A stretch of 51,428 nt of DNA from IMG/VR virus record IMGVR_UViG_3300024431_000005, positions 1-51,428 of that record; one strand, given 5' to 3'. The notes beneath the pieces are model-generated. The model was not told the origin of the DNA. It saw nothing but the letters and a program-made list of their open reading frames with translations, and made no database searches. The position numbers were made by a program, and so were the translations under genes. Of the stretch, positions 2,663-48,786 are shown in pieces. How positions within the stretch are numbered: the stretch's first letter is position 1; the number at the start of each line of letters is the position of its first letter. Origin of the DNA: a virus.

Positions 2663-3141
2663 AATTTGTACTCCTTGCCTTGCAGAACTTCGGTCAACGC
2701 GTCAACGGTGATGCCCAGATTCGGCCACTCAACGTAGGTCTGGATCTGGTAACCACTGTCATCATCCCAGCTCGGATGAAAGCCACCGAACCAGTTGTCA
2801 GTTGGTTCATCGCGCAGGTCTTCGTCGCGCGGATCATCGCAGCGCATCGCGTGGATGTCGCCGGTCAGGTCACGTGCTGCGAGTGTCGTGTTCAGCCACT
2901 CTTCGTGCGCGTCGTCGAGAATCTCAGCTGCTTCGCTGAGCAGCCCCATCAACGTCAGCTCTTCAGCTGTCAACACATCTTTGGCGACGCCAGTGCGGTC
3001 ACCCCACACTGCGTCACTTGCTTCGCGCAGTGCACCACTCAGGTGGTTGTCGCGCTTCTCGTCTGGGTACCCGCGTATCCATGCGGGCTCCTTGTAGTTG
3101 AGGCGTGATGCCAGTGCCTCGATTCGTTTTAGACTAGCCAT
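2659..3141 (-). CDS. Hypothetical acidic early protein (160 aa)
   Basis: 160 residues with a basic N-terminus (MASLKRIEALASRLNYKEP), a helical middle and a very acidic stretch (DDPRDEDLRDEPTD) near residue 110, then an aromatic segment (NWFGGFHPSWDDD). ATG 3141 has AAGGAGCAC upstream. Overlaps the following gene by 4 nt. Not recognised; the negatively charged region could mimic nucleic acid, but nothing else supports that. Confidence 0.75.
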   Translation of the reverse strand: MASLKRIEALASRLNYKEPAWIRGYPDEKRDNHLSGALREASDAVWGDRTGVAKDVLTAEELTLMGLLSEAAEILDDAHEEWLNTTLAARDLTGDIHAMRCDDPRDEDLRDEPTDNWFGGFHPSWDDDSGYQIQTYVEWPNLGITVDALTEVLQGKEYKL

Positions 3142-10778: not shown

Positions 10779-10791
10779 ATGGCGAGCCTGA
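10756..10791 (+). CDS. Possible 11-codon leader ORF overlapping the polymerase start
   Basis: ATG 10756 lies 8 nt after the only good SD here (AGGAG) and reads MVLSEAGLWRA then TGA at 10789-10791. The polymerase ATG (10779) lies inside it in another frame, has only a poor SD (AGCGGG) and no in-frame start upstream. A leader that brings ribosomes to the polymerase start is plausible; its expression is not shown. Confidence 0.3.
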   Translation: MVLSEAGLWRA

Positions 10792-13280
10792 ACCCCCACT
10801 GCACTGAGTGCGGATTACACGAGACCGCAAAGACGGTATGCATGGCAGGGGATGGTCCGCGCAAAAACGTCACCGTCATGGTGGTCGGGGAGGCTCCCGG
10901 CGCGAACGAAGACAAACGTGGTGTGCCCTTTATCGGGGAGTCCGGTAAAATTCTGCGCACCGAATTAGAACGCAACAACCTGACCGAGATCACCTACATC
11001 ACCAATCTCGTCAAGTGCCGTCCTCCCAACAACCGAACTCCCACGGCAGCAGAGATCAAAGCCTGCCGTCACTACCTCGATGAAGAAATTGAGCAGCTAG
11101 CTCCCAAGTTTGTCATCACTGCCGGAGTCCCGGCTACGAAGACGCTTTTCCGTGGCAAGGCGAAGATCAATCAATTCCATGGCGAAATCATTGAGAATCC
11201 CAAAGTCAGTTACATCGGAATGCCAATCGTCCATCCGGCGTATACGCTCCGCGATCCCTCGAAGCTTCCGGGTCTGCAGGATGACATTGCTCGGATTGCT
11301 CGCCTCATAAAGGGCGGCTTGCGCAATGATACAGTCGAGTGGACGGTCGTCAGGAAAGGAAACCTCCGTACCTTTGTAGCTGAGTTTGAGGAGGCAACCG
11401 AATTCGCATTCGATACGGAGACAGCGGGGCTCAGACCATTCGCAGAAGATGGGTACATCACTGCAGTCGCTATAGCCCTCCAACACCGGACGTGGGTCAT
11501 CCCCGGATTTATGCATCCTGATTACCAGCGTTACTCCCACAGCCCCTTCGCGCACGGTGATGCTCTTCGGAAACTGATGCAACTGCTTTTCTTTCTTGCT
11601 CATCGTGATAAAAAACGCACGTATGCGCAGAACGGGAAATTCGACAATAAATGGATGCGATGGATGTTCGGTGGTTCATTCCGCTTGACCTTCGATGTCA
11701 TGCTCGCACACCACGTGTTAGATGAAAACCTCGCGCACGATCTGACCAGCCTGTGCCGCACCTATCTCGATGAGCCTGAATACGACATCTCGCTGGCAGA
11801 GAAGCAAGGCAAGTCCGAGAAGCCCATGCGCAACTACAAATACTGCGGGCAGGACGCGACGTACACGCTCAGGCTGGGCAAACTGTTCGAGTCCCTGCTG
11901 CGACAAGACCCAGGTGTGCACCGACTGTTTTGGAAGATCACAATGCCCGGTGCGCGCGCGATGGAAGACGTGGAAATGGAAGGGCTCACCATCGATGGAG
12001 CTGCGCGTAAAGAAGTCGGGCTCCAACTGCTATCCGAGATGATCACGGAACGCGAAGAGCTGAACGACATGACTGGCGGCGACGTGAACTGGAACAGCCC
12101 AGCGCAGATCGGAAAACTCCTATATAAAGATCTGGGGTATCAGTGCAAAATTTTTACGAAGAAAGGGGCAAATTCTACATCTGAAGAAGCGCTGCTCAGC
12201 ATCGCAACCAAACCCGTCGTCAAGAAGCTGCTCGCCTATCGTGGCGCATCTAAGATGTTTAACACGTACATCAAGGGCTGGGAGAAGTATCGTATCGGCG
12301 ACAAATATTATTTCGATTACAAACTGCACGGCACTGTCACCGGCAGATATTCTTCTCCGCTCCACCCTATCCCGCGCGATGGAAAGATCCGCAACCTCAT
12401 TACTGCACCAAAAGGATGGACACTCTGCGCGTTGGATATTGCCACCGCAGAGATGCGTGTTGCTGCGCACCTGTCCAAAGACCCAGAGATGCGTCGGTGC
12501 TTCACCCACGGCATAGATGTTCACTGGCGCACAATGATCGAGACGTTGTACATCAGTCAGCAGAGCGAGTGGACTGAACGCGTGTTCGACACCGCTGAAG
12601 CCATCGCTGACTGTGGTGGCATGTCGTACACCGAATGCCTCGACATCATGATGGAGGCAGGCCCGAAGAAGTGTATCGCTATCGAGCCACGTTGGTACGA
12701 AGGCAGGACGCGCGCAAAAGCCGTTAACTTCGGCTTCATCTACGGTATGTATCCGAAGAAATTCATCGAGCAGGCGAAGAAGGATTACGGCTGGGAACCC
12801 AGCATGGCAGAAGCGAAGAACGCACGTCATGCATATTTCCGACTGTACTCTCGGCTGGCTGACTGGCACACCAGAACGAAGCGACTTGCAAAAACAAACG
12901 GTCACGTACGCTGCCTGACTGGTCGGTTGCGCAGGCTTCCCGGCATTCAGACCAGAGACAAGATGGTACGCATGGAAGCTGAACGTCAGGCTGTTAACTC
13001 AGGCGTGCAAGCCATGATCGGGGACTACAAAACGATGATCCTGATCGAGATCCACAAGACATTCCCGCGTGATCATGTGCGAATTGTCGGAGAGCATCAC
13101 GATGCAGTGCTGACCATTGTCAGGGACGAAGTTATCCCTGAGTGCGTGCCGAAGATGCTGAAGATCGCAGAGCGACCAGCCCTGATGGACACATTCAAAA
13201 TAACACTCAGCGTGCCGATGGAAGGTGAAGCAACGCTGGGCAACTGGGGTAAAGGAGTGAAGTATGAGCAAGCCGCGTGA
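10779..13280 (+). CDS. Uracil-DNA glycosylase / DNA polymerase I fusion
   Basis: 833 residues. Residues 1-180 are a family 4/5-type uracil-DNA glycosylase: GEAPG (37-41), HPAY (152-155) and four probable Fe-S ligands C8, C11, C80, C96 with the usual CxxC and C-x15-C spacing. Residues 200-370 are a complete 3'-5' exonuclease (D212/E214 in FDTET, D289 in NGKFD, Y355 and D359). Residues 380-833 are family-A polymerase: motif A D553/E558/R560, motif B R643, K647, F651, YG 655-656, motif C H774/D775. F651 equals E. coli F762. Motif A to B is 90 residues against 49 in E. coli, so about 40 residues are inserted. It replicates DNA and may screen it for uracil. UDG-polymerase fusions are known in phages such as SPO1. 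Confidence 0.95.
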   Translation: MASLNPHCTECGLHETAKTVCMAGDGPRKNVTVMVVGEAPGANEDKRGVPFIGESGKILRTELERNNLTEITYITNLVKCRPPNNRTPTAAEIKACRHYLDEEIEQLAPKFVITAGVPATKTLFRGKAKINQFHGEIIENPKVSYIGMPIVHPAYTLRDPSKLPGLQDDIARIARLIKGGLRNDTVEWTVVRKGNLRTFVAEFEEATEFAFDTETAGLRPFAEDGYITAVAIALQHRTWVIPGFMHPDYQRYSHSPFAHGDALRKLMQLLFFLAHRDKKRTYAQNGKFDNKWMRWMFGGSFRLTFDVMLAHHVLDENLAHDLTSLCRTYLDEPEYDISLAEKQGKSEKPMRNYKYCGQDATYTLRLGKLFESLLRQDPGVHRLFWKITMPGARAMEDVEMEGLTIDGAARKEVGLQLLSEMITEREELNDMTGGDVNWNSPAQIGKLLYKDLGYQCKIFTKKGANSTSEEALLSIATKPVVKKLLAYRGASKMFNTYIKGWEKYRIGDKYYFDYKLHGTVTGRYSSPLHPIPRDGKIRNLITAPKGWTLCALDIATAEMRVAAHLSKDPEMRRCFTHGIDVHWRTMIETLYISQQSEWTERVFDTAEAIADCGGMSYTECLDIMMEAGPKKCIAIEPRWYEGRTRAKAVNFGFIYGMYPKKFIEQAKKDYGWEPSMAEAKNARHAYFRLYSRLADWHTRTKRLAKTNGHVRCLTGRLRRLPGIQTRDKMVRMEAERQAVNSGVQAMIGDYKTMILIEIHKTFPRDHVRIVGEHHDAVLTIVRDEVIPECVPKMLKIAERPALMDTFKITLSVPMEGEATLGNWGKGVKYEQAA

Positions 13281-41245: not shown

Positions 41246-42319
41246 TTACCTCGTGTACGGTGCGATGTTAGGACGCAGGTACACTTCAGACTCATCGGTC
41301 TCACCTGTCCATGCGTCATCTAAATAAGTTTTTGCATCGAGGTCCAAGCGAGGAAGTATCTCCTCCTTCACCTCTTTAATTTCTCTGCCCAGTTGCGCTG
41401 CCAAATTGCAAACGATGGCGAGGTACCAGCGATCCGGAACTTCCAGCTCGTCTGTCATCGCACCTACGTCTTGCACCTGCCGCTGCACAAAGCCCGTAAT
41501 CTGATCGAACGTAAACTCAGCACCGGGACTCGGCCAAAGCTCCAACTCCGGTTGCGTACGTTGCCTGTCGTACCAGAACTGCGTCGGTCTGCCCGTGCTG
41601 ATCTTGTCAGGCAAGTTCGCGTAGTCATTCCGATTGAGTTTGTACATCGGAATCTCATTGGGCGTGTTCTGGTACACCAGCTCTCGCACATCGAGCACTG
41701 TGGTGCCGGTCGCCCGTAATCGAAACGCATCAAATTCCGTGACGCCCGTCGCGAGAGGTCCTTGTAGATCCTCCCAGATCCATGTCGCGTCAACGACTGC
41801 TACACCCGTTCGCGTGATGAGAGCCACCGAAGTCACAAAGTTATCGTTCGTTGCCTCGATCACGTAGTCCCAGGTTCCGGTAACGTTAGGCAAGATGCCG
41901 AACGTAGATACGAACGTGGCACTGTCGAGCGCCATGGTGATCGTACCCAGCATTGCTATCTGCGTGCACGCTGACTGAAGATCACCATCGAACGCGTTAC
42001 CCGCGACTCCCTCCGACGCAGTTGGCGTACCCGTGACTCTGTTCTGACTGCGCAGGTTGATCGTGTACGTGTCTTCGGTACCAAGAGGAAGCGGCACCGT
42101 CATCCTGCGATGATAGATAGGCTCCAAGAGCGGAATAACGTTCCACAGCTTGATGCCTTTGTTGACCAGAGTCTGGGTGTACAGCCACAACAGTTCGAGC
42201 GAGATCTGCAGGTGCTCCCCAGTGATTTCCTGTTCGACCATCTTGCAGCGACGAAAAGCATGATCAATGATCTGCTGATTCAAAAAGACTGTGCTACCGA
42301 CTGTTCCTGATGTTGGCAT
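41246..42319 (-). CDS. P22 gp4-like head-tail adaptor with inserted discoidin-like domain
   Basis: 357 residues. The N-terminal helices (IIDHAFRRCKMVEQEITGEHL, LLWLYTQTLVNKGIKLW) and the C-terminal helices (DRWYLAIVCNLAAQLGREI, LDLDAKTYLDD) form the head-completion core, with PTQFWYDRQRTQPELELWP between. Residues about 95-220 are an insertion with discoidin/F5-8C-like strands (NAFDGDLQSACTQIA, WDYVIEATNDNFVT, FRLRATGTTVLDVRELV). It would bind the portal and open the route to the tail; the insertion may face outward. Its ATG shares a base with the stop of the frameshift extension of the gene ahead. Confidence 0.75.
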   Translation of the reverse strand: MPTSGTVGSTVFLNQQIIDHAFRRCKMVEQEITGEHLQISLELLWLYTQTLVNKGIKLWNVIPLLEPIYHRRMTVPLPLGTEDTYTINLRSQNRVTGTPTASEGVAGNAFDGDLQSACTQIAMLGTITMALDSATFVSTFGILPNVTGTWDYVIEATNDNFVTSVALITRTGVAVVDATWIWEDLQGPLATGVTEFDAFRLRATGTTVLDVRELVYQNTPNEIPMYKLNRNDYANLPDKISTGRPTQFWYDRQRTQPELELWPSPGAEFTFDQITGFVQRQVQDVGAMTDELEVPDRWYLAIVCNLAAQLGREIKEVKEEILPRLDLDAKTYLDDAWTGETDESEVYLRPNIAPYTR

Positions 42320-42465
42320 TAGTAACCTCCGCCACGCACTCTACTACGCCCACCACGAGGCCGCGTCCCATGACCCTTCGGCCTCGGGGATCTGACGTGA
42401 CGGTCCATGACCTTTTCGGCGACTCGCTTAGCGACCTTTTCTACAGAGCCGCCCCGGCTTTTTTT
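42319..42465 (-). CDS. -1 frameshift extension of the 307-aa basic virion gene
   Basis: From A_AAA_AAA (42465-42459), read in the -1 frame, 46 residues follow: SRGGSVEKVAKRVAEKVM, then an Arg/Gly-rich end (RPKGHGTRPRGGRSRVRGGG and Y), with TAA at 42321-42319 sharing a base with the next ATG. A stem GGCGGCTC/GAGTCGCC (42453-42446 with 42425-42418, 8 bp with one G-T pair) begins 5 nt after the heptamer and holds the zero-frame TAG in its 20-nt loop. Joined product 348 aa. Alternative: an independent 29-codon ORF from ATG 42408. Confidence 0.7.
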   Translation of the reverse strand, partial: KKSRGGSVEKVAKRVAEKVMDRHVRSPRPKGHGTRPRGGRSRVRGGGY

Positions 42466-47856: not shown

Positions 47857-48786
47857 CTACAGACCTGGAGTACCGAATACCGCACGTGGATCAGTCCAAT
47901 CGGGGATGTAACGTTCCGTGGACTTGTACCGCATGCTGTCGGTCTCAAAATCACCTTCCATCGACTTCTCCAGCCCGCGACGCATCATCAGCTGCAGACC
48001 ACGAGGAGCGTCCGTCTGGACCCACCATGCAGTTGTGCTGGTAATACGCGACAGATTGGCCTGACCCTGAGACAGAAGTCCCATCGAAAGGATCGGGTTG
48101 ATGTCGTTGTTGGCTGTGCCAGCTCGCAGGACACTCTTCAGCAGAACTTCTGCTTGGAACACCTGGCTCGGACCAGTGACAATCTTGAGAGGCTGCAAAC
48201 GAATCCGCTTGCCGTTATTGTCCACGGCATTGCGAATCTGAATGAGCAACTGCTCAAGCGACGTCTGCGATAAAGCTGCAGCAGTCGTCAACAGGTTCGA
48301 GAACACACCACCCGCACTGCCACCAGGGGCAATTGGATGGTTGGTTACGTTGAGTGCTACACCATCACCTCCGACGAAAGCACCGTTGAATGCCCGGTTA
48401 AGGATATTCGCACACAGTGTTTCCTTCGTCTCGATCATTGACTGAGCGAGATGCTCGGAATAAATTCTTCCGATGCGGATGTGATCGCCATCTTCGACCA
48501 GGACCTTGGTCAGCGCGAATGCGAGACCGAAGACCTTGTAGACGTAACGCTGAATGAACAGCACTCCGCCTGCGTCGAACGTGACCGGAGTGCCATCAGG
48601 CATTTCCGGCGCAGCGTTAAAGCCGAACAGGACCGGCTCTTCATGGTACGACCGGGGAGTACCCGTTCGATCAGTGAAGACACCTTTCCATTCATCGGCG
48701 CGTTGGTTGTAAATTCCGTCAAATGTCTCGTTCAAAATCGGCTCGACAATTGAGCGGAAGTCGGTACTTCTCATTGGTACTGCCAT
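47857..48786 (-). CDS. Major capsid protein, HK97-fold type
   Basis: 309 residues. An N-terminal helix (RSIVEPILNETFDGIYNQ), the strand/loop region YKVFGLAFALTKVLVEDGDHIRIG, a spine-helix-like HLAQSMIETKETLCANILN, LNVTNHPIAPGG, and an A-domain with LKIVTGPSQVFQAEVLLKS and the C-terminal ALMM-type LQLMMRRGLEKS fit the phage major head protein (Mu gpT / HK97-fold) group. Size is typical. It lies after a scaffold-like and a decoration-like gene and before a strong hairpin. Confidence 0.85.
   Translation of the reverse strand: MAVPMRSTDFRSIVEPILNETFDGIYNQRADEWKGVFTDRTGTPRSYHEEPVLFGFNAAPEMPDGTPVTFDAGGVLFIQRYVYKVFGLAFALTKVLVEDGDHIRIGRIYSEHLAQSMIETKETLCANILNRAFNGAFVGGDGVALNVTNHPIAPGGSAGGVFSNLLTTAAALSQTSLEQLLIQIRNAVDNNGKRIRLQPLKIVTGPSQVFQAEVLLKSVLRAGTANNDINPILSMGLLSQGQANLSRITSTTAWWVQTDAPRGLQLMMRRGLEKSMEGDFETDSMRYKSTERYIPDWTDPRAVFGTPGL

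Follow-up and report, generated by a model that had tools for sequence, protein, structure and literature searches.

Introduction

Programmed -1 ribosomal frameshifting is an established mechanism, known from dnaX, lambda G-T and T7 10A/B, and the phage examples described so far lie mostly in tail chaperone and major capsid genes; G_GGA_AAG-like heptamers serve in lambda-type systems as well. When two tRNAs slip back together by one base on a heptamer of the form X_XXY_YYZ (tandem -1 slippage), one gene would yield two proteins, a short one and a long one. T7/T3 gene 10 is one of several known cases in which frameshifting makes a C-terminal extension (PMC5009743), and the training data of PRFect consist mainly of tail chaperones (PMC10885494).

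Here we describe a 307-aa gene in a viral sequence of 51,428 nucleotides (IMG/VR record IMGVR_UViG_3300024431_000005, hereafter the window) which, judging from its own letters and those of its relatives, contains, with a probability that we put at about 93%, a signal for programmed -1 ribosomal frameshifting. The locus resembles T7/T3 10A/10B in that ribosomes shifting to the -1 frame close to the 3' terminus of a phage gene would add a C-terminal extension (PMC5009743). It differs in lying outside the major capsid protein gene (the major-head-protein PHROG match is a different gene, 47857-48786), in that its site is a standard X_XXY_YYZ heptamer whereas the T7 site is G_GU-type, in that its predicted tail is a basic helix with an RG-rich end, and in that the same phage has a second virion-module gene with the same pattern. 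With lambda G/GT it shares a predicted -1 frameshift in a structural gene cluster, but the 307-aa gene lacks the lambda position, with a major tail protein gene on one side and a tape measure gene on the other, no tape-measure gene follows it and its protein is unrelated; tape-measure-like PHROG matches were obtained only in a short stretch of a distant 685-aa gene. With bacterial dnaX and IS elements, which have A_AAA_AAG with a 3' stem-loop, it shares the type of heptamer and a putative stem that begins some 5-7 nt further on; the gene is a different one and a 5' Shine-Dalgarno stimulator is uncertain in the window. The mechanism is known; what appears to be new are the gene families and the use of frameshifting in a pair of genes with repeated switching. 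Literature searches, with subscription journals outside their coverage, found no full-text paper joining ejection protein, ribosomal frameshift and phage, and among the titles listed none on this gene family.

Results

The zero-frame gene (43364-42441, minus strand) encodes a basic, Gly-rich protein of 307 aa with GGVVKK and GMPKNVK repeats and ends in GGT GGC GTA GTA AAA AAA GCC GGG GCG GCT CTG TAG. A sequence-only reading of this DNA had pointed to an unusual gap of 121 nt before the next gene, to an in-frame A_AAA_AAA near the stop, to 46 codons in the -1 frame and to a stem placed behind the heptamer. The coordinates bear out the gap, from the stop of the 307-aa frame to the ATG at 42319. 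The heptamer (42465-42459, minus strand) is in phase with the zero frame within GTA GTA AAA AAA GCC, and the two earlier GGVVKK copies in the protein indeed lack the A7 run, being written GTG AAG AAA and GTG AAA AAG. The extension in the -1 frame (42459-42319, minus strand) agrees base for base with the earlier description: after KK it reads SRGGSVEKVAKRVAEKVMDRHVRSPRPKGHGTRPRGGRSRVRGGGY, 46 residues, followed by TAA at 42321-42319, whose last A is the first base of the next ATG. The putative stimulatory stem begins 5 nt past the heptamer, with the 5' arm GGCGGCTC at 42453-42446 and the 3' arm GAGTCGCC at 42425-42418 (both minus strand); it has the 8 bp claimed for it, one of them G-U, and the zero-frame TAG lies in its loop. 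Most ribosomes would continue through GTA AAA AAA GCC as far as the TAG, giving the short form of 307 aa, while a fraction would slip back one base on A_AAA_AAA, aided by the stem, to make a 348-aa form with the 46-residue tail.

Structure prediction gives the tail a helix (model residues 7-25, mean pLDDT 64), followed by an Arg/Gly-rich end, so that the copies with a tail may bind nucleic acid or a partner. The 307-aa protein has no Pfam or PHROG match, Rfam is silent on the site, and phage records gave no match for either the tail or the 307-aa protein. The labels 'podovirus' and 'virion protein' applied to this gene draw on its neighbourhood. The gene is flanked by a 93-aa gene and by a 357-aa adaptor-like gene (42319-41246, minus strand), of which MW202545 has a relative annotated as 'tail adaptor' and whose protein model has terminal helices with a CBM32/discoidin-type (F5-8 type C) domain between them; homologues of the 307-aa gene in relatives likewise lie upstream of the adaptor-like gene. 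Because it adjoins these two genes, a role of the 307-aa protein at the head-tail junction or inside the virion is plausible.

Since in-phase X_XXY_YYZ heptamers are common enough in the window (15 in the 14,541 codon positions of its genes, about 1 per 970 codons), this single observation by itself is not decisive. Relatives were collected with the 357-aa downstream gene as anchor, as it is well conserved (40 IMG/VR loci at first, more later). A homologous tail was found in 25 distinct sequences, comprising the window and its IMG/VR relatives; in every one of them it is read in the frame -1 relative to the upstream gene, and its stop overlaps or abuts the next ATG. Within the overlap of the two frames an in-phase X_XXY_YYZ heptamer is present in the window and in 23 of the 24 others. 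It is A_AAA_AAA in most, A_AAA_AAG in L028, G_GGA_AAA in L016 and G_GGA_AAG in L039, L040 and L184, all of them forms known to be shifty, and about half of the distinct tail-bearing sequences have the zero-frame stop right after it. The exception, L185 (L186 is identical in sequence), has the junction TCA AAA TAG, with A_AAA and a stop in place of a full heptamer, some 140 nt upstream of position 3001, where the adaptor-like gene starts; its tail is still in the -1 frame, which a one-tRNA slip on A_AAA before the stop would also reach. An alignment of relatives, proposed as a check by the sequence-only reading, finds heptamer, phase and extension kept as identity in the neighbour protein falls from 90% to about 47%, and the gain or loss of an A in the A run that would join the frames occurs in no close relative. 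In a tree of these sequences G_GGA_AAG appears in two well separated clades, with G_GGA_AAA and A_AAA_AAG nested among A_AAA_AAA rows, so that the site has been substituted several times without loss of slipperiness, the relatives not being independent of one another.

The overlaps of the 25 sequences amount to 909 codons (just 3 and 9 codons in L025 and L040), in which 0.94 heptamers are expected and 24 were found. Elsewhere in the same genes no in-phase heptamer occurs in 5,333 codons, despite 95 Lys-Lys pairs. In the -1 frame the tail has a pN/pS of 0.25 (11 sequences) and 0.23 (9 sequences), compared to 1.3-4.1 in the other frames; for one set the values are 0.25 versus 1.42 and 1.56 in the other two frames. 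Purifying selection thus acts on the tail as read in the -1 frame and in no other. By identity the tail is also the best kept of the three parts compared in a 14-sequence set (82% with 3% gaps), ahead of the neighbour (76%, 1% gaps) and the zero-frame protein (64%, 38% gaps).

The tail could instead be a separate small gene starting at ATG 42408, or be reached by termination-reinitiation, and an ATG does stand at the homologous place in most relatives (GTG in L012), with an additional ATG four codons into the tail frame in L013 and L028. The sequence-only reading had itself named a separate gene at this ATG as the case that would overturn a frameshift, and that case fails in L016 and L184, where the tail frame has no ATG, GTG or TTG before the conserved motif. 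Conservation of the tail moreover begins well upstream of the Met, and a separate gene leaves a retained, interchanging in-phase heptamer unexplained. It also fits poorly with L088/L089 (HVRSPAPKGHG; 55% neighbour identity) and L090 (HVRSPKPRGHG; 50%), in which a C terminus similar to the tail is in the zero frame of the corresponding gene. We consider this explanation very improbable. The in-frame fusion in L088/L089/L090 means that the tail probably belongs at the end of the 307-aa protein and that, in the window's clade, this tail probably came to lie behind a shift site.

Other relatives (L002, L006-L008, L033-L037, L083 and L187) have no tail, which is therefore dispensable in some lineages. 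The tail-less rows are scattered in the tree, on which the frameshift label needs at least seven changes; these include losses, and recombination is likely. GTDB genomes contributed six sequences distantly related to the neighbour gene; for four of them the region upstream was read completely, and none of these four had the tail. A scan of 83 loci serving as controls (without a tail, with a fused tail or more distant) gave eleven candidates, discarded as noise or wrong-frame ORFs with no shared tail.

Stems start about 5-7 nt past the heptamer in most lineages. For Group A, to which the window belongs, 95.5% of cells are paired in 11 relatives, compared to 25-48% when the stem is slid; no compensatory change occurs among these 11, and the folding energy of the group's stem is unremarkable (z of -1.3 to +1.3 for most members). 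In Group B 88.9% are paired, and a single pair shows a double change (U-A to C-G), a result that shuffles also give. The stem, a putative stimulator, is likely, but coding constraint on the GGS and RVA codons could explain part of the pairing. On the 5' side, GGGTGGC (42477-42471, minus strand), 5 nt before the heptamer, is a possible Shine-Dalgarno-like stimulator, and relatives have a GGAGG/GGTGG stretch about 5 nt upstream of the heptamer, GGAGGC in several; the case for it is weak because the same bases encode the conserved Gly-Gly.

Listing all in-phase heptamers in the window led to a second site. The gene concerned (27824-26700, minus strand; 374 aa) matches PHROG 4287, 'DNA ejection protein', and contains C_CCA_AAA (26739-26733, minus strand), which is in phase and lies 12 codons upstream of the zero-frame stop; the -1 extension after the heptamer (26733-26527, minus strand) runs for 68 residues to a TGA at 26529-26527, just before the next gene. 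A C terminus homologous to this tail is fused in frame in many relatives (L206-L212, L217-L228, L230, L231, L236 and L238). The same C terminus would be reached by a -1 shift at C_CCA_AAA in the window and L203-L205, and at G_GGA_AAA, in a different position, in L213-L216, while in L229, L232, L233 and L237 a different tail lies behind G_GGA_AAG. The string GGGAAAA is common to L206/L207 and L213-L216, and a frame difference upstream of it leaves the C terminus fused in the former and shifted in the latter. In a core-domain tree of the ejection-protein relatives the frameshift label needs at least four changes. Stems start 5-6 nt after the heptamer both in L213-L216 (9 pairs, 100% paired) and in L229/L232/L233 (10 pairs, one compensatory change from G-C to A-U); the window's own C_CCA_AAA site has no notable stem. 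Among the window, L204 and L205 the tail has a pS of 0.299 and a pN of 0.048, in the -1 frame only. Both shifted genes occur on the same contig in L023/L204, L038/L213, L039/L232 and L040/L229. A second site of the same kind thus probably lies in this independent gene, whose product is probably a DNA-ejection protein, and it adds to the support for a shift in the 307-aa gene. Another listed heptamer, AAATTTA near the 3' end of a 715-aa gene, was rejected, as its -1 frame is short and ends inside the next gene. In the fused relative L217 an in-phase G_GGA_AAA persists in the gene starting at 3001, with about 39 codons (about 118 nt) left to the gene's end; a -1 shift at this heptamer would not reach the conserved C terminus.

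The variety of sites in both genes bears on whether RNA polymerase, rather than the ribosome, slips at the A7 run. Recoding through polymerase slippage on runs of A is well established, and most members do have the A7 homopolymer; yet relatives with G_GGA_AAG or G_GGA_AAA, which lack it, keep both phase and tail, and the second gene's C_CCA_AAA, G_GGA_AAA and G_GGA_AAG sites do not suit such an origin, so we give transcriptional slippage scarcely any credence. That a single indel, through sequencing or assembly error or decay of the frame, split one continuous gene is already refuted by comparison with the relatives: homopolymers are error-prone and the tail is in frame in distant relatives, but the split is common to 25 distinct sequences from many contigs, with slippery sites and purifying selection on the tail, and is the same at non-homopolymer sites.

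Discussion

A programmed -1 frameshift, most likely by tandem slippage of both tRNAs, remains the reading that we favour for the 307-aa gene. From these comparisons we infer the slippage itself, its efficiency, the role of the stem and the presence of both forms in the virion at a set ratio. In E. coli constructs, a host perhaps unlike that of this phage, A_AAA_AAA is less shift-prone than A_AAA_AAG (PMC5009743). We lean towards a broader view in which two independent -1 sites, one in the basic protein next to the adaptor and one in the DNA-ejection protein, would fix the stoichiometry of C-terminal tails on parts of the virion, with repeated switching between tails that are always fused and tails that are dosed by frameshifting.

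Two gene families are thereby added, with strong comparative evidence and within one phage, to those in which phage -1 frameshifts are described. Homologues that occur naturally in both states, such as L206 (fused) and L214 (frameshifted), make the role of the long:short ratio directly testable, and standard gene callers would truncate or miss both tails.

Elsewhere in the window, a single 833-aa ORF (10779-13280) joins a uracil-DNA glycosylase domain to the 3'-5' exonuclease and family A DNA polymerase domains that follow it.
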